A program made the position numbers and the translations under genes. A stretch of DNA of 28,362 nt from a virus, in the IMG/VR virus record IMGVR_UViG_3300020457_000068, positions 1-28,362 of that record. The stretch is one strand, 5' to 3'. Shown piece after piece: positions 5,399 to 24,897 of this stretch. Below the pieces are notes generated by a model, which did not search any database, had not been told where the DNA came from, and saw nothing but the letters and a program-made list of their open reading frames with translations. The first letter of the stretch is position 1, and each line of letters begins with the position of its first letter.

Positions 5399-6958
5399 AT
5401 GAACCACGGGTTAATTATCGGTGGTGTGGTTGACTATCATTATGTATCTGTCAAAAGAGCGCCTGGCGCACATAAAATAGCAACACACCTTAGAAGACAA
5501 GGTTGGGACGTAGAAGTCCTAGACTTTGTTCAGTCATGGACTCTTGAAGAATTAAAAGAGTTCAGTAGACAACGAGTAACAAACAAAACAAAATTCTTAG
5601 GTATATCAGCTACCTTTTCTGTAAGGTTCAAACATCTATATGAATTCTTACCTTGGTTCAAAGAACAATATCCAGATGTTATTATAGTTTCAGGCTCACA
5701 GTCCTTTTATAATTGTGAGGGTTTACCTATAGATTATATGGTAACAGGTTATGGTGAACATGCAATGGATGCTATTCTTAATGGAACAGTAAAAGGTTCT
5801 GAACATAAATGGCTGAACGGAAATAAATTTTTAAGAGTAGATGCAACAGCACATCACCCTGCAGCACAAATGAAAAACTTATCCTCACACTATGAGGAGA
5901 GAGATTACATACAACCACAAGAAGTTCTTACTGTAGAATTTGGTAGAGGTTGTATATTTAATTGTCATTTTTGCACACTAACACATAGGAACATTAAAGA
6001 AGATCATAGTAGATCAGCAGATAATTTATATGATGAACTATTAGAAAACTATGAGAAGTGGGGTGTTACAAACTATTCAATAGCAGACGAAACAGTAAAC
6101 GACTACACAGAAAAGCTATACAGATACTCTAATGAGATAAAGAAACTACCTTTTAAACCTAATATGGCAGGGTATATTAGAGCAGACTTACTTATATCTA
6201 AGCCTAATGATTGGGAGATGATTAGTGATATAGGACTTAATTCTCAGTTTTATGGCATAGAATCTTTCAACAGACCCTCAGCGAAGTCCGTAGGCAAGGG
6301 TATGGAAACTATACGATTACAGGATGGGCTACTTAAATACAAGGATTGGATGGAGGCTAGAGGGTTTTACAGGGGACATTTGAGCCTTATAGCAGGGTTA
6401 CCACACGAAACATTAGATACACTAAGAGCTACAAAACAATGGATAGAAACTAATTGGCAGGGACAATCCTCAATGATTAATCCTTTATGGATACCTGATA
6501 TAACAAGACCCTACGAGGAAAAGAGTAGGTTTGCTGAGGACCCAGAGAAATATGGATATACAATTACAACACTAGGCGATAAGGAGTGGACACAGGGTCC
6601 ACAAGGACGTTTTACAGGGTTATTTAAGGCACTACAGGCTATGGAAGCTCCTGAATATGAGAGAAAATATAAGACAGAAGAAGCTACATTCCAGGAAGAA
6701 ATGGCTTTTATGAACTGGAAAAACAAAGATATGGAACTATATGATGCTTTGAAATACTTAGAACTAGAGTGGTATGATGAGAGTGATATACATAAAGATC
6801 AACCACCATTGCCATTTACATATCACAACTGGTTGATAGATACTAAATACACATGGCAAGATATGAAGAAGCCTCAGGATTCATTACAATTACCTCAAGA
6901 TCTGGCAGAAGATTTTATTAACCAATATAAAAAACAAAAGCTCCAATCAAGTAGTTGA
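5399..6958 (+). CDS. Radical SAM enzyme with N-terminal B12-binding-like domain
   Basis: A 519-residue protein. Residues about 1-135 resemble the Rossmann-like cobalamin-binding domain seen in front of many radical SAM enzymes (GLIIGG start, IIVSGSQS, TGYGEHA), but the classical DxHxxG cobalamin-ligand motif is not visible. The radical SAM core follows with the iron-sulfur motif C185-x3-C189-x2-C192 (GRGCIFNCHFC). A downstream IESFNRPSAKSVGKG stretch is typical of this superfamily. Expected chemistry: reductive SAM cleavage to a 5'-deoxyadenosyl radical; the substrate is unknown. It sits between lysine-rich proteins 2 and 3, with its own late-promoter-like element 5 nt upstream and no Shine-Dalgarno sequence. 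Late expression among probable structural genes suggests a virion component as substrate, but this is inference. Confidence 0.85.
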   Translation: MNHGLIIGGVVDYHYVSVKRAPGAHKIATHLRRQGWDVEVLDFVQSWTLEELKEFSRQRVTNKTKFLGISATFSVRFKHLYEFLPWFKEQYPDVIIVSGSQSFYNCEGLPIDYMVTGYGEHAMDAILNGTVKGSEHKWLNGNKFLRVDATAHHPAAQMKNLSSHYEERDYIQPQEVLTVEFGRGCIFNCHFCTLTHRNIKEDHSRSADNLYDELLENYEKWGVTNYSIADETVNDYTEKLYRYSNEIKKLPFKPNMAGYIRADLLISKPNDWEMISDIGLNSQFYGIESFNRPSAKSVGKGMETIRLQDGLLKYKDWMEARGFYRGHLSLIAGLPHETLDTLRATKQWIETNWQGQSSMINPLWIPDITRPYEEKSRFAEDPEKYGYTITTLGDKEWTQGPQGRFTGLFKALQAMEAPEYERKYKTEEATFQEEMAFMNWKNKDMELYDALKYLELEWYDESDIHKDQPPLPFTYHNWLIDTKYTWQDMKKPQDSLQLPQDLAEDFINQYKKQKLQSSS

Positions 6959-11041: not shown

Positions 11042-11048
11042 ATTGACT

Positions 11049-12083
11049 ATGTTACATATAGATTTGAAATATATTAATATGATCTCGCACAGGCTAGATC
11101 GTTTTAAACGTAAGGATGACTATCTATTTAATTTCCGTTGCCCTATCTGTGGCGACAGCTCAACCAAAAAGAATAAGGCTCGAGGATACATTTACAAGAA
11201 AAAGAACGATATGTTCTACAAGTGTCATAATTGTGATGCTGGCAAAACTTTTGGTGGATTATTAAAGATAGTAGATTCTCTTCTGTATCCTCAGTATGTA
11301 ATGGAGAGATATCAAGAAGGTGTAGCAGGTCCTCGAGCCAACAAAGAACCAGAATTTAAATTTGAACAACCTAATTTCTCTGGCAGAAATACCTCTCGAC
11401 TTATAGACAGTATAATGGATAGAGTTGATAAATTACATGAACAATGTGATCTCACAGATTCTAATCATATTGCTGTTGACTATTGTAGGAAGAGAAGGAT
11501 TCCAATAGAAAAATGGGATAGGCTATATCATATAGAAGACATCTCGAAGATACATCAGTTAGCTCCTAAATACAAAGATAGGATAAAAACAAATGAGCCT
11601 CGTCTTGCTATCCCATTTTTCGATAGGGAGGGTAAGATGACTGCTATCAGTCTAAGGGACTATGGCAACAGCCCATTAAAATACATATTGGTAAAAGTAA
11701 ATGAAGATTCTCCTACAGTTTATGGTCTAGATGTTATAAATTATAATGAGCCTGTAAAGATAGTGGAGGGTCCTTTAGACAGTTTATTTTTGGACAACGC
11801 TATTGCTTGTGCAGGCACATCTTTTAACAAGATACAAACGTTAAATTTACCAGAGGATAGAATTATTATTGTGGATAACCAACCTAAAAATAAGGAAGTA
11901 TGTAACATTATCCACAACCTTATACAGTCAGGAGAACGTATAGTTATATGGCCTGACAACATTGAACAGAAAGACATTAACGATATGGTTATGGCTGGCG
12001 TCGACGTTGGCAATCTTATAAGTAATAATGTCTTTCAAAATTTAGAAGCAGAACTTCGGTTCACAAATTGGAGAAAATGTTAA
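11049..12083 (+). CDS. DNA primase, T4 gp61-like (CHC2 zinc finger, TOPRIM)
   Basis: A 344-residue protein that would make RNA primers for lagging-strand synthesis with the phage helicase. It has an N-terminal zinc-binding motif C31-x2-C34 and C59-x2-C62 (CPICGD, CHNCDAGKTF), typical of CHC2 primases. A TOPRIM-like region follows with E240 (IVEGPLDS), D276 (IIIVDNQ) and a late KDINDM motif. The preferred start is ATG 11049 (MLHIDLKYI) rather than the TTG 6 nt upstream. There is no Shine-Dalgarno sequence, and the strong early promoter ends 7 nt before the ATG. It is the first gene of the replication/nucleotide block and overlaps the next gene by one base. Confidence 0.85.
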   Translation: MLHIDLKYINMISHRLDRFKRKDDYLFNFRCPICGDSSTKKNKARGYIYKKKNDMFYKCHNCDAGKTFGGLLKIVDSLLYPQYVMERYQEGVAGPRANKEPEFKFEQPNFSGRNTSRLIDSIMDRVDKLHEQCDLTDSNHIAVDYCRKRRIPIEKWDRLYHIEDISKIHQLAPKYKDRIKTNEPRLAIPFFDREGKMTAISLRDYGNSPLKYILVKVNEDSPTVYGLDVINYNEPVKIVEGPLDSLFLDNAIACAGTSFNKIQTLNLPEDRIIIVDNQPKNKEVCNIIHNLIQSGERIVIWPDNIEQKDINDMVMAGVDVGNLISNNVFQNLEAELRFTNWRKC

Positions 12084-12253: not shown

Positions 12254-14050
12254 ATGGCACGGAAGGATTACTTAGGCATACAAATAGACTATGATAGAGA
12301 TCAGCTCTTTGACTCTCTAGGTTTACAAAGACTAAAAGAAAGTTATATGAAGGAAGAGGAGTCCTCTCCTCAAGAAAGGTTTGCCTTTGTAAGTAAAACT
12401 TTTGGCACAGATATAGAACACGCACAAAGGTTATATGAATATGCTAGTAAACATTGGCTATCATACAGCACTCCTATTCTTTCCTATGGAAGAAGTAAAA
12501 AAGGAATGCCTATCTCATGCTTTTTAAATTACATTAATGATACGGCGGAGGGTTTAGTTGAAAACTTATCTGAAACAAACTGGCTTAGCATGCTTGGTGG
12601 TGGTGTCGGTATTGGCTTTGGTATCAGATCATCTGATGATAAGTCTACTGGTGTTATGCCTCACCTTAAGACTTATGATTCATCCTGCCTCGCATACAGA
12701 CAGGGTCGCACTAGAAGGGGCTCTTATGCTACTTATCTTGACATCTCTCATCCAGATGTCCTCATGTTTTTAGAAATGAGAAAGCCTACAGGCGATCCTA
12801 ATATGAGATGCCTGAACTTACACCATGGCATAAACATTACAGATAATTTTATGCAGATTATAGAAAGGTGTATGCAAGATCCAGATGCAGATGATGGTTG
12901 GAATCTAGTAGATCCTCATTCAGGACTAATTAGAGATACAGTATCAGCCAAGGACTTATGGCAAAAGATATTAGAACTTAGAATGGAAACAGGCGAACCC
13001 TACATACATTATATTGATACAAGTAATAGGGAGATGCCTCAGTTCCAAAAGGATTTAGGTTTAAAAATACATCAGAGTAATTTGTGTTCTGAGATTATTT
13101 TACCTACTAATGAAAAGAGAACAGCAGTATGCTGTTTATCATCCGTTAATTTAGAAAATTACGGTGCATGGGTTCGAGACCCACAATTTTTAAGAGACGT
13201 AGCAGAGATGTTAGATAATGTTCTAACATTCTTCCTCAAACATGCTCCTGATGAGGTAAGTAGAGCTAAATATTCTGCTATGAGAGAAAGGAGTATAGGT
13301 GTTGGTGCTTTAGGTTTTCATGCGTATCTACAGAAGAACGGAATTGCATGGGAGACACCTGAAGCCAAAGGTGCTAACTTGAGATTATTTAGACATATAA
13401 GGAGCAAGTTAGATGAAGCTAACAAACAACTTGGAAAGGAGAGAGGAGAAGCGCCTGACGCTAAAGGACGAGGCTTACGTTTTAGTCATGTTATGGCTGT
13501 TGCTCCTAATGCTTCCTCTAGTATTATTATGGGCAACACCTCGCCATCTATTGAGCCGTTTAGAGCTAATGCTTACAGGCAAGATACACTATCTGGAGCC
13601 TATCTTAACAAAAACAAATACTTGGATGATATCATTAAGGAATACTGCGAGAAACATCCTAGAACAAATTATGACGAGGTTTGGTCGTCGATAATTGGCA
13701 ATGATGGTAGTGTTCAACACTTAACACAATTAACTGATGAACAAAAAGCCATTTACAAAACATCTATGGAAATAGATCAACGTTGGTTGATAGAACATGC
13801 AGCAGATAGGCAGGAGTTTATTGACCAAGCACAAAGTTTAAATTTATTCTTTAGACCTGACACGAACATAGCATACTTACATGCTGTTCATTTCCTAGCC
13901 TGGAAGTCAGGTATAAAGACATTATATTATTGTCGTTCAGAGAAATTAGGCAAGGCTGATAAAGTGTCTAAAAGAATAGAACGAGAAATTATACAAGAGC
14001 TAGACATGAGAGAAATTGCAGATGGAGAATGTCTAGCTTGTGAAGGATAA
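12254..14050 (+). CDS. nrdA: Ribonucleoside-diphosphate reductase, class I large subunit, no ATP-cone
   Basis: Reduces ribonucleotides to deoxyribonucleotides with the NrdB radical subunit. Key residues are visible: redox cysteines C89 (ISCFLNY) and one of C293/C294 (AVCCLSS), the active-site triad N276-C278-E280 (NLCSE), the radical-transfer pair Y558-Y559 (LYYC), and a C-terminal C593-x2-C596 shuttle pair. At 598 aa it is shorter than typical NrdA (about 760 aa). It begins close to the catalytic barrel, so the N-terminal ATP-cone for dATP feedback is missing; this should free the phage enzyme from that off-switch. The Shine-Dalgarno sequence AAAGGA precedes ATG 12254. The QueC-like gene follows 4 nt after its stop. 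Confidence 0.93.
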   Translation: MARKDYLGIQIDYDRDQLFDSLGLQRLKESYMKEEESSPQERFAFVSKTFGTDIEHAQRLYEYASKHWLSYSTPILSYGRSKKGMPISCFLNYINDTAEGLVENLSETNWLSMLGGGVGIGFGIRSSDDKSTGVMPHLKTYDSSCLAYRQGRTRRGSYATYLDISHPDVLMFLEMRKPTGDPNMRCLNLHHGINITDNFMQIIERCMQDPDADDGWNLVDPHSGLIRDTVSAKDLWQKILELRMETGEPYIHYIDTSNREMPQFQKDLGLKIHQSNLCSEIILPTNEKRTAVCCLSSVNLENYGAWVRDPQFLRDVAEMLDNVLTFFLKHAPDEVSRAKYSAMRERSIGVGALGFHAYLQKNGIAWETPEAKGANLRLFRHIRSKLDEANKQLGKERGEAPDAKGRGLRFSHVMAVAPNASSSIIMGNTSPSIEPFRANAYRQDTLSGAYLNKNKYLDDIIKEYCEKHPRTNYDEVWSSIIGNDGSVQHLTQLTDEQKAIYKTSMEIDQRWLIEHAADRQEFIDQAQSLNLFFRPDTNIAYLHAVHFLAWKSGIKTLYYCRSEKLGKADKVSKRIEREIIQELDMREIADGECLACEG

Positions 14051-14054
14051 AACT

Positions 14055-14753
14055 ATGGATAATACATCAATAGCGAAGTTCTATCTGTCTTTTTTAAAAG
14101 AAATGAGTATGATGAACAATAAAGTTATTGGTGTTGTAGTATCAGGTGGATTTGATAGTTCATTATTATGGCATTTAGTATATGGTGTATGCCTAAAAAG
14201 GAATCAAAAGTGTATTCCTTTTACTGTTCCTAAAGTGGACGGTGCATTAACTTATGCCAATAGAATGTTAGAGTGGTCTAGTAATTATTATGAACAAAAA
14301 AGACTCCATCCTATTGTAATAAATCAACAAGGGGTTGATTGGAACAGAAACGATTATTTAGGAGATGAGGTTGCACAGCAACTTTTAGACGGGATAAAAG
14401 AGATAGTAGATAATAATATGGCAGATGTAGTATTCACAGGTGTAAATGACTATCCTCAGCATTATGAAACACTATGCGCTTATCACACTCCTGCACGTAG
14501 AAAAAAAGTTAGTGAAAGTGATTATGTTCACAACGGAGTTCCAATACAAGATATAATCAAACAACCATTCGCAGACTATACTAAGGATTTTTTAGTTAGA
14601 CTGGCATGGGAAGAAGGGATATTAGATGACGTGGCTAGTTTTTCACATAGCTGCGTGGAACAAATTAGAGGCAGATGTAACGAATGTTTTTGGTGTAATG
14701 AAAGATCATGGGCATTCCAGGAGGCTGATCTATCAGATATAGGGAAAGAGTAG
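14055..14753 (+). CDS. QueC-like PP-loop ATPase (7-cyano-7-deazaguanine synthase family)
   Basis: A 232-residue product starting at ATG 14055 with AAGGA upstream; an earlier GTG at 14040 lacks a site. Residues 30-35 are the PP-loop SGGFDS that binds ATP. Near the C-terminus C200-x7-C208-x2-C211-x2-C214, followed by NER and an aromatic-AF ending, reproduces the QueC zinc signature (usual spacing Cx8Cx2Cx2C). QueC converts 7-carboxy-7-deazaguanine to preQ0, the precursor of queuosine and of some phage DNA modifications. The middle of the protein looks divergent, so another substrate is possible. It sits between nrdA and nrdB, with stop and nrdB start sharing a base, so it is co-expressed with dNTP synthesis. 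No other deazaguanine-pathway gene is recognisable in the window. Confidence 0.75.
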   Translation: MDNTSIAKFYLSFLKEMSMMNNKVIGVVVSGGFDSSLLWHLVYGVCLKRNQKCIPFTVPKVDGALTYANRMLEWSSNYYEQKRLHPIVINQQGVDWNRNDYLGDEVAQQLLDGIKEIVDNNMADVVFTGVNDYPQHYETLCAYHTPARRKKVSESDYVHNGVPIQDIIKQPFADYTKDFLVRLAWEEGILDDVASFSHSCVEQIRGRCNECFWCNERSWAFQEADLSDIGKE

Positions 14754-15748
14754 TGGTAAGTAAAAACAAATTAACAGATGAAAGGGATTATTTTAAACCG
14801 TTTAATTATCCTTGGGCGTATGAAGCATGGTTAAAACATGAGCAATCACATTGGTTGCATACAGAAGTTCCAATGGCAGAAGATGTAAAGGATTGGAAAG
14901 ATAAATTATCAGATCCTGAGAAGGCATTTCTAACAAACATATTTAGATTCTTTGTGCAGGGAGATATAGATGTAGCAGGAGGTTATGTAAATAACTATCT
15001 GCCTTATTTTCCTCAGCCAGAAGTTCGTATGATGTTGTCAGGATTTGCTGCAAGGGAGGCATTGCATGTCGCTGCCTATGCACATTTAATCGAGACATTA
15101 GGTATGCCTGAGTCTACATATAGTGAGTTCTTAGAGTATCAGACAATGGTAGAAAAACATGAATACTTTATGGACTTATCATCTAAAAATGGAACGGCAG
15201 AATCTGTTGCTGTAAATATAGCAGCGTTCTCAGCATTTACAGAAGGAATGCAGTTATTCTCTTCTTTTATAATGTTGTTGAACTTCCCACGTCATGGCAA
15301 AATGAAAGGCATGGGACAAATAATTACGTGGTCTATTGTAGATGAAACAATGCACGCAGAGTCTATGATACAATTATTTAAGACTTATGTAAAAGAAAAC
15401 AGAAACCTATGGAACGACAAAATTAAGAAAGAAATATACGATATAGCAGAAAAGATGGTAGAACTAGAAGAAATGTTTATTGATACATGTTTTGCTATGG
15501 GAGATATGGAAGACCTAAAACCAGAACAAGTAAAACAATACATAAGATATATTGCTGACAGGCGTCTTATAAGTATGGGAATGAGAGGAATCTTTAAAGT
15601 AAAAAGAAATCCTTTATTATGGGTAGAAGAAATGATAAATGCCCCTACACATACAAACTTCTTTGAAAACAGAGCTACAGATTATGCCCGTGGTGCTCTT
15701 AAAGGAGATTGGGGTGATGTATGGGGTGCTGCACAGAATGGAAGATAA
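14753..15748 (+). CDS. nrdB: Ribonucleoside-diphosphate reductase, class I small (radical) subunit
   Basis: A 331-residue di-iron tyrosyl-radical subunit partnering the NrdA at 12254. The expected metal ligands are present: D71 (VQGDIDVAGGY), E102 and H105 (REALHVAAY), E164 (FTEGM), and E198 and H201 (DETMH). The candidate radical tyrosine is Y109, at the Y122 position of the E. coli enzyme. This supports a class Ia-type cofactor rather than a tyrosine-less variant. The start is GTG 14753, sharing its G with the TAG stop of the QueC-like gene. Translation is probably coupled, as no strong ribosome site stands alone there. The tail overlaps the zinc-ribbon gene by 11 nt. Confidence 0.93.
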   Translation: MVSKNKLTDERDYFKPFNYPWAYEAWLKHEQSHWLHTEVPMAEDVKDWKDKLSDPEKAFLTNIFRFFVQGDIDVAGGYVNNYLPYFPQPEVRMMLSGFAAREALHVAAYAHLIETLGMPESTYSEFLEYQTMVEKHEYFMDLSSKNGTAESVAVNIAAFSAFTEGMQLFSSFIMLLNFPRHGKMKGMGQIITWSIVDETMHAESMIQLFKTYVKENRNLWNDKIKKEIYDIAEKMVELEEMFIDTCFAMGDMEDLKPEQVKQYIRYIADRRLISMGMRGIFKVKRNPLLWVEEMINAPTHTNFFENRATDYARGALKGDWGDVWGAAQNGR

Positions 15749-15920
15749 AATATATTTAGAGTGTGAGAAGTGTGAAGGTGTTGCAACGATAACACATGAT
15801 CAGGACCACCATTTTTATCAAGTGAAATATTGTCCTTTTTGTGGCGATGAACGGGAGCCAGAAGAGGAATTTAAAATGACAGACCCGTATGAAGAAGAGT
15901 ATGAAGCTGGACTTAAATGA
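15738..15920 (+). CDS. Small zinc-ribbon protein
   Basis: A 60-residue product from ATG 15738 (MEDKIYLECEKCEGV). Two Cx2C knuckles (CEKC at about residues 9-12 and CPFC at about 32-35) make a treble-clef or zinc-ribbon-like metal site, followed by an acidic tail. The gene overlaps nrdB by 11 nt and the cupin gene by about 20 nt, so it belongs to the same transcript. Such small zinc ribbons are common phage accessory proteins; the role is unknown. A redox link to the reductase is conceivable from context only. Confidence 0.6.
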   Translation: MEDKIYLECEKCEGVATITHDQDHHFYQVKYCPFCGDEREPEEEFKMTDPYEEEYEAGLK

Positions 15921-16233
15921 TATCGGCGGTGAAACTATAAAAGACAATGAAACTTATTTACTAAAAGACAATAAGTTTCTAAATAATCTAGTATTAAGTA
16001 GCACAGAACTAAAGCCACATCAACAAACTACAGGACACATGCACAAGGGGCAAGAGGAAGTATATTTCTTTGTCTCGGGCAAAGGATTTATAACTGTAGA
16101 TGCAGAATTGTATGATGTAGAAGCTGGAACTGTGGTGCTTATACCTGATGGTTCTTTTCATAGAGTGTATAATGACACCGATGAGCCGTTATATTTTGTA
16201 TGCGTTTTCGACGGTAAACGCACACATAAATAG
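15901..16233 (+). CDS. Single-domain cupin protein
   Basis: A 110-residue product from ATG 15901 (MKLDLNDIGGE); an in-frame ATG at 15889 would add four residues and cannot be excluded. The cupin motif 1 is clear: G45-H46-M-H48, an E at 52/53 and a following G (GHMHKGQEEVYFFVSGKG). Motif 2 gives P82-D-G and H87. Cupins bind a metal through these His/Glu residues and act as isomerases, epimerases, dioxygenases or sugar-binding proteins; the substrate is not readable. Its TAG stop lies inside the late promoter CATAAATA of the next gene. A role in sugar or small-molecule metabolism during infection is an inference. Confidence 0.75.
   Translation: MKLDLNDIGGETIKDNETYLLKDNKFLNNLVLSSTELKPHQQTTGHMHKGQEEVYFFVSGKGFITVDAELYDVEAGTVVLIPDGSFHRVYNDTDEPLYFVCVFDGKRTHK
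16225..16232 (+). promoter_or_regulatory. T4-type late promoter (CATAAATA), leaderless type
   Basis: CATAAATA overlaps the stop codon of the cupin gene and lies 5 nt before ATG 16238. There is no Shine-Dalgarno sequence before that ATG. Predicted transcription start falls on the start codon. Confidence 0.55.
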
Positions 16234-21809: not shown

Positions 21810-22949
21810 GTGGAAAACAACTGGACATACGGAAACTTACGAAGCGTTCATTTAGAATTATCAACGCTATGTAATTCTATATGTCCTTGGTGTCCTCGAT
21901 ACCAAGACTTCTCTCCTAATGTAAATCCTAATATTATACAGGGTGCATACACATTAGAGAGATTCAAAAGACACTTCCCTATCGATTTTATAGAACAGAT
22001 AGAGTTCTGGACCTTTGCAGGAGATTACGGAGATCCTTGCACTGCACCAGAGATACTAGACATTATTGAATACATCTTAAGCATAAAAGATTGTAAGATG
22101 CAAATCAATACAAATGGTGGTATGAAGAACAAAACATTCTGGAAAGAACTAGGAGAACTTATAAGGGGCAATCCAGATGAAACATATACACAATTCCAAA
22201 AGAGATATGTAATATTCTCTGTAGATGGATTAGAAGATACAAATCACATATACAGAAGGAATGTTAAATGGAACAAAGTTATCACTGCAATGGAAACTTA
22301 TAGTGATACAGGAGCGAGAGGCATTTGGGAGTTTTTAAAATTCAAGCATAATGCACACCAAAAGGAAGAGGTTATGAAATTAGCATACAAACTAGGCTTT
22401 CCTGTTAGAATGAAGAACCCTAATGGTTTTGAAGGTGCTCCTATGCCAGCCAAAGATAAAGAATACAATATACAATACGAAATATATCCAGAGGAAGAGG
22501 ATATAAAGCCCATACAAATGGACGACAAACAAAAACAATTCATAAAACTAATAAATGCTGATAACTCGCCTGTAAAGTATAAAGATGTATCACGCATATT
22601 AGAACAAAGTAGAAAAGGTAGAGAGACATGTATAAATTGTCAGGCAAAAACATTAGGAGCTGGCAATGAGATAAGAATAAACTATGATGGCACAGTCTGG
22701 CCATGTAGTTTTTATGGACATTTAAGTAGAAAGTATCTCAAAGGCAGATATGTTTCCGTTGTCCATAAGTTCCAGGCAGATGGTATATTTGAAAATATAC
22801 AAAACAATCTAGACAAACAAACACTAAAAGAGATATTAGATAATGACCCTTTCAGAAAAATATATGAAAGCTGGGAAGATCACAGCATTCTGTTATGCTC
22901 AGACTCCTGTGGCACAGCCCAAAATACTATGGAGAAAATATATGCGTAA
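21810..22949 (+). CDS. Radical SAM enzyme with SPASM-like C-terminal cysteines
   Basis: A 379-residue product starting with GTG 21810. The radical SAM motif is at the very N-terminus: C21-x3-C25-x2-C28 (CNSICPWC), binding the 4Fe-4S cluster and SAM. The C-terminal third has further cysteines C274-x2-C277, C299 and C363-x3-C367, with a YDGTVWPC element typical of SPASM/twitch extensions that hold auxiliary clusters. Such enzymes often modify peptides or proteins, but some act on small molecules or RNA; the substrate here is unknown. It overlaps the downstream Rossmann-type gene by 8 nt (ATGCGTAA), so the two probably act in one pathway. A late-promoter-like element lies 5 nt upstream. Confidence 0.85.
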   Translation: MENNWTYGNLRSVHLELSTLCNSICPWCPRYQDFSPNVNPNIIQGAYTLERFKRHFPIDFIEQIEFWTFAGDYGDPCTAPEILDIIEYILSIKDCKMQINTNGGMKNKTFWKELGELIRGNPDETYTQFQKRYVIFSVDGLEDTNHIYRRNVKWNKVITAMETYSDTGARGIWEFLKFKHNAHQKEEVMKLAYKLGFPVRMKNPNGFEGAPMPAKDKEYNIQYEIYPEEEDIKPIQMDDKQKQFIKLINADNSPVKYKDVSRILEQSRKGRETCINCQAKTLGAGNEIRINYDGTVWPCSFYGHLSRKYLKGRYVSVVHKFQADGIFENIQNNLDKQTLKEILDNDPFRKIYESWEDHSILLCSDSCGTAQNTMEKIYA

Positions 22950-23472: not shown

Positions 23473-23969
23473 GGGTCATAGAATCTGCCCCATTGCCAGC
23501 CCTCAGGCTTAGGTTCACTTACAGGTATTGTAGTAGTTACACCATCAGGTGAACACACCCAACGACGTCTTTCTTTTTGCATGGCAGCTTCATGCATCTT
23601 TTGTCTTGTTTCTTTAGAATGTCTTCTGCCCCACATAGGATTATTCTCTCCTAGTCTTGTGCCACGCATAGTATTTGATACTTTCTCTCTAAACTCTGCG
23701 TCCCTACCACGTTTTACAGCAGGGTGATTGATACCTTGTTTAGCCTCTCTTATACGTTCTAATCCTTCAGGGCTATGTTTAGCAGTTCTTTTCCTAGCGC
23801 TATCCATGACAATAGGCTGACTCATATACAATGCTCGTTCTCTTATTATCTCTATTTGTGAGGCTCTAAAGATAAGTTCACGAGGCTTAGGAACATCATC
23901 TATCTTTGTGTTATCTACAATATACAACTCACCACCGTGATTGAATAAGAAGAACAAACTAGCTTTCAT
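23439..23969 (-). CDS. NUMOD3-containing protein, homing-endonuclease remnant or regulator
   Basis: A 176-residue product. Residues about 107-125 (GENNPMWGRRHSKETRQKM) are a textbook NUMOD3 motif, a DNA-binding module of GIY-YIG and HNH homing endonucleases; a second weaker copy precedes it (GINHPAVKRG). The C-terminus carries a W-V-C-S-P-D-G and EGWQWGRF element common in such proteins. The first 60 residues show neither a GIY-YIG nor an HNH catalytic core, so it may be a degraded homing endonuclease or a DNA-binding protein. It has GGAG 9 nt before the ATG on the minus strand and overlaps the SGNH gene by 11 nt. It is the last gene of the minus operon. Confidence 0.7.
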   Translation of the reverse strand: MKASLFFLFNHGGELYIVDNTKIDDVPKPRELIFRASQIEIIRERALYMSQPIVMDSARKRTAKHSPEGLERIREAKQGINHPAVKRGRDAEFREKVSNTMRGTRLGENNPMWGRRHSKETRQKMHEAAMQKERRRWVCSPDGVTTTIPVSEPKPEGWQWGRFYDPYKPDTEPFNL

Positions 23970-24897
23970 TGGCTAACTCCACAAAGTAAGGTGCAAATAT
24001 TTCTCTATGTTGATATGGTCCAGGGTGTATTAGATCTCTGCCTACACAACTATTGTGTGGCGTAGTGTATTCCATATTGTTTTCGTTGTAATGATCTAAC
24101 CATGCTTGGGGAGGCATACCTATTAGTCCTTCGCCTTTACTGTTCTCAGGTAGATTCCATTGTGGAACATCTAACCAGTCTGCACAAACAAACTTACAAG
24201 GATATTTCCTACTGCCTCTACATATATGAGCCATTGCATCTCGGTTTAGATTTTGATACAACCAACGCTCTCTTGTGTCATTAGACATGTTGAAGTAATG
24301 TGCTAGGTTATCTTCTTTACTGAACGAGCCTATGTCTGTTCCCATTTCTTTCCATCTAGTTTCCTGATTATTATAGTGCTGTTCTATGTGATTATTGCCT
24401 CCCTCAGTTAGAAACAATTCTCTTCTGCCTGGGTCTTGTTGAAAGAAGAATACATACTTAGGTTTGATTACATCTATCCATTCTCTTGCTACTCTAACTG
24501 CAGCATTTTGTCCTGTGCCTGGTTGTCCCATGTTTATACACTCAACGCCTAGTGCTTTAGATACTAGGTAAGGCCAGCTATCCTCATAATTAACACCTAC
24601 GCCAAATGTAAGACTACAACCTAAGAACACAGCGCTGTCATGATTCTTTTCAAAGTCTTTATTGTGTCTGAAACCATATGTATTTACATCATAATCTATG
24701 TTATCTTCTGTCCAACCATACTTAGAAGCTATGTCTTTGTTCTGTTCCCATCTATCTAATGTATCTCCTGGCATCCATTTATAAGTTCCAGGACATTGTT
24801 TCGCCCAGGCTTTTGATCTGCCATATTGAAATATATCAGAATACTTGATATGTTTTCTTTTCATGTCTGCTTGTCTTACTTGTTCTGTATAGTTCAT
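23959..24897 (-). CDS. SGNH/GDSL-family hydrolase
   Basis: A 312-residue product with the SGNH blocks in order: block I GCSLTFG with nucleophile S95 (GDS replaced by GCS), a block II glycine in NMGQPGTGQN (122-131), and block V D288-x2-H291 (DLIHPGPYQH). These enzymes hydrolyse esters of lipids, acetylated sugars or other carbohydrates. No signal peptide is visible, so it acts in the cytoplasm or is released at lysis. The start overlaps the upstream nuclease-like gene by 4 nt (ATGA on the minus strand), with AAAGG nearby. Possible roles are deacetylation of surface glycans or peptidoglycan, or modification of a phage product. Confidence 0.8.
   Translation of the reverse strand: MNYTEQVRQADMKRKHIKYSDIFQYGRSKAWAKQCPGTYKWMPGDTLDRWEQNKDIASKYGWTEDNIDYDVNTYGFRHNKDFEKNHDSAVFLGCSLTFGVGVNYEDSWPYLVSKALGVECINMGQPGTGQNAAVRVAREWIDVIKPKYVFFFQQDPGRRELFLTEGGNNHIEQHYNNQETRWKEMGTDIGSFSKEDNLAHYFNMSNDTRERWLYQNLNRDAMAHICRGSRKYPCKFVCADWLDVPQWNLPENSKGEGLIGMPPQAWLDHYNENNMEYTTPHNSCVGRDLIHPGPYQHREIFAPYFVELANES

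Follow-up and report, generated by a model that had tools for sequence, protein, structure and literature searches.

The closest described relatives of the enzyme considered here are QueC and Cap9, both of which use 7-carboxy-7-deazaguanine (CDG). In E. coli QueC, residues Y35, R99, Y131 and Y189 are essential (Libby et al. 2026, PMC13329287). An aspartate reads the guanine edge in both QueC and Cap9 (PMC13279940), and the tyrosine and aspartate of the YPDC motif contact CDG. Among phages, 7-deazaguanine bases have been measured in the DNA of Vibrio phage nt-1, which Hutinet et al. list as DpdA-bearing (PMC6884629).

The stretch of DNA analysed here, referred to as the window, comprises the 28,362 bases of a virus record in IMG/VR; it has no end repeats and is a genome fragment of about 28 kb. 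On its plus strand, at 14055..14753, lies a gene for a QueC-like (PF06508) PP-loop enzyme of 232 amino acids, named from Pfam, motifs, relatives and fold. It is preceded by nrdA, encoding the large subunit of a class I ribonucleotide reductase (RNR) (12254..14050, plus strand; PF02867, E 1.1e-107; phrog_84, 4e-167), and followed by nrdB, encoding the small subunit (14753..15748, plus strand; PF00268, E 4.4e-74; phrog_86). Further upstream, a DNA primase gene (11043..12083, plus strand; phrog_47, E 8e-70) is a syntenic marker of the nrd operon in sister phages, while a cupin gene (15889..16233, plus strand; PF07883, E 2e-16) follows nrdB as a conserved neighbour in most relatives. The original prediction placed a PP-loop protein with an SGGFDS loop and a C-x7-C-x2-C-x2-C site between nrdA and nrdB, and the 232-residue ORF confirms this: SGGFDS occupies residues 30-35 and the zinc-site cysteines are Cys200-x7-Cys208-x2-Cys211-x2-Cys214. 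The predicted junctions of 4 and 1 nt also hold, in that nrdA ends at 14050, leaving a 4-nt gap before the ORF, and the GTG start of nrdB at 14753 is the last base of the QueC-like TAG, giving a 1-nt overlap. An alternative in-frame GTG start at 14040 would add five codons to the ORF and make it overlap nrdA. Against three close relatives, the dN/dS of the gene is about 0.17, 0.09 and 0.13, and that of the flanking nrd genes is about 0.02-0.07. The gene is under purifying selection, and the low ratios mark it as a true protein-coding gene rather than a chance ORF.

Three other genes of the window deserve mention. A B12-binding radical-SAM protein is encoded at 5399-6958 (plus strand); its matches, to P-methyltransferase and further families of B12 radical-SAM enzymes, are weak. 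A radical-SAM/SPASM protein at 21810-22949 (plus strand) keeps its synteny downstream of an exonuclease in sister phages. Neither of the two radical-SAM proteins qualifies as QueE, as their best matches are to other radical-SAM families. On the minus strand, 23959-24897 encodes an SGNH-like protein with a weak DUF6473 match, and similar-looking genes recur between nrdA and nrdB in relatives. We also weighed, and discarded, a role for the QueC-like protein in building an unusual cofactor of RNR, since NrdB seems, by eye, to retain the class I metal ligands and tyrosine.

The assignment to the QueC family, also part of the original prediction, is upheld by profile searches. The window protein scores 23.7 bits with PF06508 (QueC) against a cut-off of 22, a match that covers only its C-terminal 57 residues, and no other Pfam family reaches its cut-off. 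The same model recognises all 13 aligned relatives (best E 1.1e-9). When PP-loop families were compared, as had been proposed, no other profile in Pfam or NCBIfam ranked above QueC for the window protein; phmmer against the PDB returned chance matches only. The protein is not a canonical QueC. With TIGR00364 the window scores 21 bits and three relatives 27.7-29.5, against a cut-off of 150.3, and the YxQxHxxE, VPxRN and SCY motifs are absent. The nrd-linked clade, of which 27 distinct sequences were collected from IMG/VR, nevertheless retains the PP-loop, the four cysteines and a P-F-x-x-x-T-K stretch. The S, G, G, D and S of the SGGxDS loop are invariant in 27/27 sequences, as are the four zinc-site cysteines, whose first spacing is x7 versus the x8 of QueC. 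Signatures of the clade in the window protein are VPKVDG (58-63), GVNDYP (129-134) and PFADYTK (171-177). By its sequence, the QueC-like protein is most likely a divergent, putative ATP-dependent amide synthetase of the QueC family, and the nrd-linked proteins, as judged from their motifs and profile matches, are a new clade within the known QueC superfamily.

The possibility of a different substrate was raised at the outset from the 7-residue first spacing and the divergent middle of the protein, and the motifs bear out that the substrate site differs from that of QueC. An invariant VPKxDG occupies the place of YxQxHxxE, with V58 of the window protein replacing Y35. VPxRN is absent from the clade, and SCY has become SCV or SCT, which puts V or T in place of Y189. 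The tyrosine equivalent to Y131 of YPDC (Y133 here) is retained in 23/27 sequences, and the guanine-edge aspartate is D in only 8/27 and Gln in the window; the alignment is uncertain at both places.

An AF2 model of the QueC-like protein (mean pLDDT 84.8) matches Cap9 best (Z 15.0), followed by QueC (Z 14.6 and 13.9), NcsA (Z 13.5, rmsd 5.4), LarE (13.0) and NadE (about 12), with NcsA nearly tied with Cap9 and QueC. The modelled fold is nearest to the two CDG-using enzymes. Since the margin in Z is small, the fold backs membership of the QueC family but leaves the substrate unfixed. With Cap9 at the top of these matches, tied with QueC, the protein might act as Cap9 does and ligate CDG to the N-terminal end of a protein of the phage or its host, and a QueC-fold and a TGT-fold enzyme also occur together in type IV CBASS (Cap9, Cap10). 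This protein deazaguanylation is nonetheless highly improbable: the operon has no CD-NTase or other obvious partner with an N-terminal glycine, NrdA and NrdB do not start with Met-Gly, and DpdA-linked phages are known as DNA modifiers.

The relatives come from a narrow range of sources. A tblastn search of 50,697 phage records with the QueC-like protein found nothing at E 0.01; that collection likewise contained no cultured phage or isolate of this lineage, and no relative was found in the bacterial and archaeal species genomes scanned. The source viruses are uncultivated and are probably marine bacteriophages. In all 27 distinct sequences the gene is placed between nrdA and nrdB, and the closest relatives share the whole gene order of the window (primase, nrdA, QueC-like gene, nrdB, cupin, GIY-YIG). 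The distance to nrdB is 0-20 nt in most relatives, about 205-233 nt where a small gene intervenes (glutaredoxin-like in L118), and about 650-690 nt where the gene is the leading copy of a tandem QueC-like pair. Such tandem, divergent copies between nrdA and nrdB were observed at L042:5036-6345 and L114:3714-4990, and in L015 and L016 a gene for an NfuA-like protein with Fe-S_biosyn and NifU domains (L015:6756-7340) separates nrdA from the QueC-like gene. In relatives without the QueC-like gene, the same gap is filled by genes that read as thioredoxin-like, glutaredoxin-like, oxygenase-like and others, names that reflect our reading of the sequences. Across L100-L179, thyX is also among the genes that occupy the gap. 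Since unrelated genes occupy it, the gap is best seen as a cargo slot, and position alone is no proof of a tie to the reductase.

A second, distant clade of phage QueC-like proteins was reached through the CNECFWCNER motif of record L005. Its members are more distant (22-27% identity), share the CxECFWCxER end, and sit in cassettes with several radical-SAM/SPASM proteins; QueD occurs in 1/16 of these records. This clade was set apart because of its different context and the single QueD-bearing record. Records L042-L044 have two QueC-like copies together with a radical-SAM gene between nrdA and nrdB; in L042 the radical-SAM gene comes ahead of the two copies. The cassette with a CGECFWCKER end (L051:4713-13214; L069, L074, L082, L089) is widespread and also encodes SGNH-like and Asp-hydroxylase-like proteins. 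The existence of the radical-SAM clade calls for caution about the substrate of the whole QueC-like group.

No other que genes are present in the 28-kb window, which is too short to hold them. Because the window cannot show the pathway, the pathway claim rests on sister genomes. There, QueD, QueE and a DpdA-like protein are encoded in all five long records (82-170 kb), with FolE confirmed in four; folE and queD occur together in 4/4 sister records (82, 84, 90 and 170 kb). The genes form a co-directional block of queE, a phosphoribosyltransferase gene, folE, an exonuclease gene, the DpdA-like gene, further small genes, a gene for a 353-aa protein, and queD. Profiles identify QueE (phrog_2076, 7.5e-53), QueD (phrog_2389, 2.6e-37), FolE and a phosphoribosyltransferase of xanthine type. 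About 40 contigs of IMG/VR share this conserved block, and in 5/5 sister records its DpdA-like gene is 52-56 kb from the QueC-like gene. The link to a 7-deazaguanine pathway that had been suggested from the window thus received a positive answer in sister genomes, where folE, queD, queE and dpdA were all found; the case against it, that no other pathway genes would exist, gives way to their presence in relatives. The statement that the gene goes with dNTP synthesis and not with other que genes stands for the 28-kb fragment but not beyond it, as the sister genomes have que and DpdA genes elsewhere.

The 422-aa DpdA-like protein is missed by the TGT Pfam model, PF01702. Its AF2 model (pLDDT 80.6) has a TGT fold (Z 20.4), and HADSGGLQ and SYDSTTHSR, with invariant DSGG and YDSTTHSR, are found in 12/12 aligned sequences. 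In Vibrio phage ValKK3 a homologue has folE on one side and queF/queC on the other, and in Stenotrophomonas phage Ps15 one adjoins QueC and QueE. ValKK3 belongs to the same phage group as nt-1. On the strength of the TGT fold, the kept motifs and the ValKK3 and Ps15 homologues, the protein is predicted with good confidence to be DpdA-like.

Two further members of the block bear on what is made of the base. All clusters that extend far enough have the phosphoribosyltransferase gene between queE and folE, and its homologue in Synechococcus phage BUCT-ZZ01 is annotated as a xanthine-guanine phosphoribosyltransferase. The enzyme could salvage guanine released by DpdA, or it could make a CDG nucleotide. 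Xanthine/guanine-type examples are at L194:5423-5938 and, as a homologue, L226:5748-6209; a 'phosphoribosyltransferase' of Ps15 is a 123-aa sequence unlike one and was left out of the count. The 353-aa protein is a GT-B glycosyltransferase (PF00534, best E 8e-12, in 6/11 members) with a weak PDB match to a putative glycosyltransferase. GT-B genes are seen in que/DpdA clusters across unrelated phages (L230:10178-11251, L226:10656-11822, L227:10272-11300, L228:7815-8975). The conserved GT-B gene suggests that the base in phage DNA is further modified, perhaps to a glycosylated 7-deazaguanine.

Presence of the QueC-like gene follows that of the pathway. In the 170-kb record and three others, PF06508 matches exactly one protein each, the nrd-linked one, and the 92-kb record has two tandem copies, both in the nrdA-nrdB slot. 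Among nrdB relatives in records of at least 80 kb, QueD, QueE and the DpdA-like protein are present in 5/5 with the QueC-like gene and absent from 5/5 without it (Fisher exact test, two-sided, p about 0.008, for ten records that share some ancestry). Mapped onto the NrdB tree, the trait requires six changes, at least two of them forced, so that the ten records do not count as ten separate cases. A 72-kb record that has the QueC-like gene shows no block, and synteny with a near-copy indicates that it ends before the block would begin. This pattern makes it quite improbable that the protein is a PP-loop enzyme of unrelated function merely filling the nrd cargo slot. Such a reading would draw on the slot being a hotspot for many different genes and on the sister QueC-like clade in radical-SAM cassettes, mostly without QueD, but it must contend with a presence that tracks the que and DpdA genes in 10/10 long records and with a fold nearest to CDG-using members.

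The reading we prefer, with a probability of roughly 0.58, is that the QueC-like enzyme serves a phage 7-deazaguanine pathway, amidating CDG with ATP so that the product can be exchanged into DNA by DpdA. FolE, QueD and QueE would in turn convert GTP into CDG, whose C7 carboxylate would be adenylated at the PP-loop of the QueC-like enzyme. The enzyme would then couple nitrogen, giving ADG and possibly going on to preQ0, and the DpdA-like transglycosylase would swap this product for guanine in replicated phage DNA, which may thereby be shielded from host nucleases. The scheme presumes that the rest of the pathway is present in the window's own genome and takes CDG as the substrate, ammonia as the amine and DNA as the final target. 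Under it, the nrd location would reflect co-expression with DNA synthesis and no direct reaction with RNR. Against amidation of CDG count the changes in the substrate site (V for Y35, V or T for Y189, VPxRN absent, the guanine-edge Asp mostly lost) and the fact that the gene is unclustered with the que genes.

The original prediction also raised the idea of a modified nucleotide handled by the reductase. In such a route the enzyme would act on a 7-deazaguanine nucleotide made from CDG by the phosphoribosyltransferase, RNR would reduce it, and polymerase would insert the modified dGTP. The strict nrdA-X-nrdB position in 27/27 distinct relatives fits, as do substrate-site motifs unlike those of base-using QueC, and a modified-dGTP route has been proposed for Campylobacter phages (PMC6884629). 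The phosphoribosyltransferase fixed between queE and folE in the que cluster keeps a nucleotide-level route alive; it could rather, however, salvage DpdA-released guanine. The same genomes encode a DpdA-like enzyme of TGT fold that has both catalytic motifs, and its presence makes exchange of the base in DNA a simpler account. In relatives, glutaredoxin, thioredoxin and unrelated genes use the nrdA-nrdB gap as a cargo slot. With this DpdA present and the gap open to unrelated cargo, the reductase route is possible but not favoured, and we regard it as unlikely.

Two other phages open another line of argument. Synechococcus phage BUCT-ZZ01 (L226, ON615601.1) and Acidovorax phage ACP17 (L227, KY979132.2) each encode FolE, QueD, QueE and the same DpdA family, with no QueC-family gene. 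This DpdA may therefore need no QueC product of the phage's own, either inserting CDG itself or using a host product, and the DNA base of these two phages may be CDG or depend on host QueC. If DpdA inserted CDG, the QueC-like enzyme could work afterwards as an amide ligase on DNA-borne CDG, coupling ammonia or another amine, possibly with the glycosyltransferase following. Besides the two phages that reach CDG and this DpdA family without QueC, the altered CDG-base recognition residues, with invariant VPKxDG replacing YxQxHxxE, agree with this order of events; the tandem QueC-like copies in L042-L044 and L114 suggest that substrates have diversified, and CmoY sets a precedent by joining glycine to 5-carboxymethylcytosine in DNA (PMC12783734). 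The protein has, however, no DNA-binding extension, its 232 residues being close to the size of a free-base QueC, and dCDG in these phages is hypothetical, which leaves ligation on DNA a doubtful order of events. Somewhat broader, though rather improbable, is a novel amide ligase that joins an amine other than ammonia to CDG, be it the base, a nucleotide or CDG already placed in DNA. Combined with the GT-B enzyme it could yield an undescribed hypermodified, possibly glycosylated 7-deazaguanine, its supply tied to the reductase operon.

Returning to the preferred pathway of CDG amidation and DpdA exchange, the locus adds to the QueC superfamily a clade tied to DNA modification of the DpdA type. 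Searches for que gene clusters would miss a QueC step displaced in this way. Taken together, the phosphoribosyltransferase, the GT-B enzyme and the divergent active site predict 7-deazaguanine DNA, perhaps in an undescribed form, and the nrdA-nrdB gap is revealed as a cargo slot in this phage group.

Several known systems can be set beside this one. QatC of qatABCD also has a QueC core, SGGxDS and altered CDG-recognition residues, but the protein described here differs in lacking N- and C-terminal extensions (232 aa versus about 400) and in its zinc spacing (x7 versus x19), and no qatABD genes were seen with the QueC-like gene. CmoY of Synechococcus phage S-B43 is likewise a phage ATP-dependent enzyme, asparagine-synthetase-like, that forms an amide on the carboxyl handle of a DNA base (PMC12783734); it differs in using a cytosine C5 handle, in belonging to the asparagine-synthetase family and in having no QueC-type zinc site. 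Cap9 of type IV CBASS (PDB 9NTO), the top structural match (Z 15.0), is a compact QueC-type CDG ligase that transfers to an amine other than ammonia, and that system, as here, uses a QueC-fold alongside a TGT-fold enzyme. Unlike Cap9, the phage protein has other motifs, and the phage pathway genes indicate DNA rather than a defence protein; no CD-NTase was found among the window ORFs examined, the neighbours of the QueC-like gene being nrdA and nrdB. With canonical QueC (PDB 3BL5, 2PG3; PF06508 cluster 1, PMC13329287) it shares the fold (Z 14.6), a similar size, the SGGxDS loop, the four-cysteine zinc site and the PF06508 match, with FolE, QueD and QueE in sister genomes. It departs from canonical QueC in its x7 zinc spacing, VPKxDG, the lack of VPxRN, SCV or SCT, a score far under the TIGR00364 cut-off and a gene in the nrd operon. 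Finally, the sister genomes share FolE, QueD, QueE and a DpdA-like protein with the DpdA-type systems of phages 9g, CAjan and nt-1 (PMC6884629). Unlike in those systems, the QueC step would be carried out by a divergent enzyme encoded 52-56 kb away, between nrdA and nrdB, and the que cluster adds a phosphoribosyltransferase, a GT-B glycosyltransferase and a small conserved protein.
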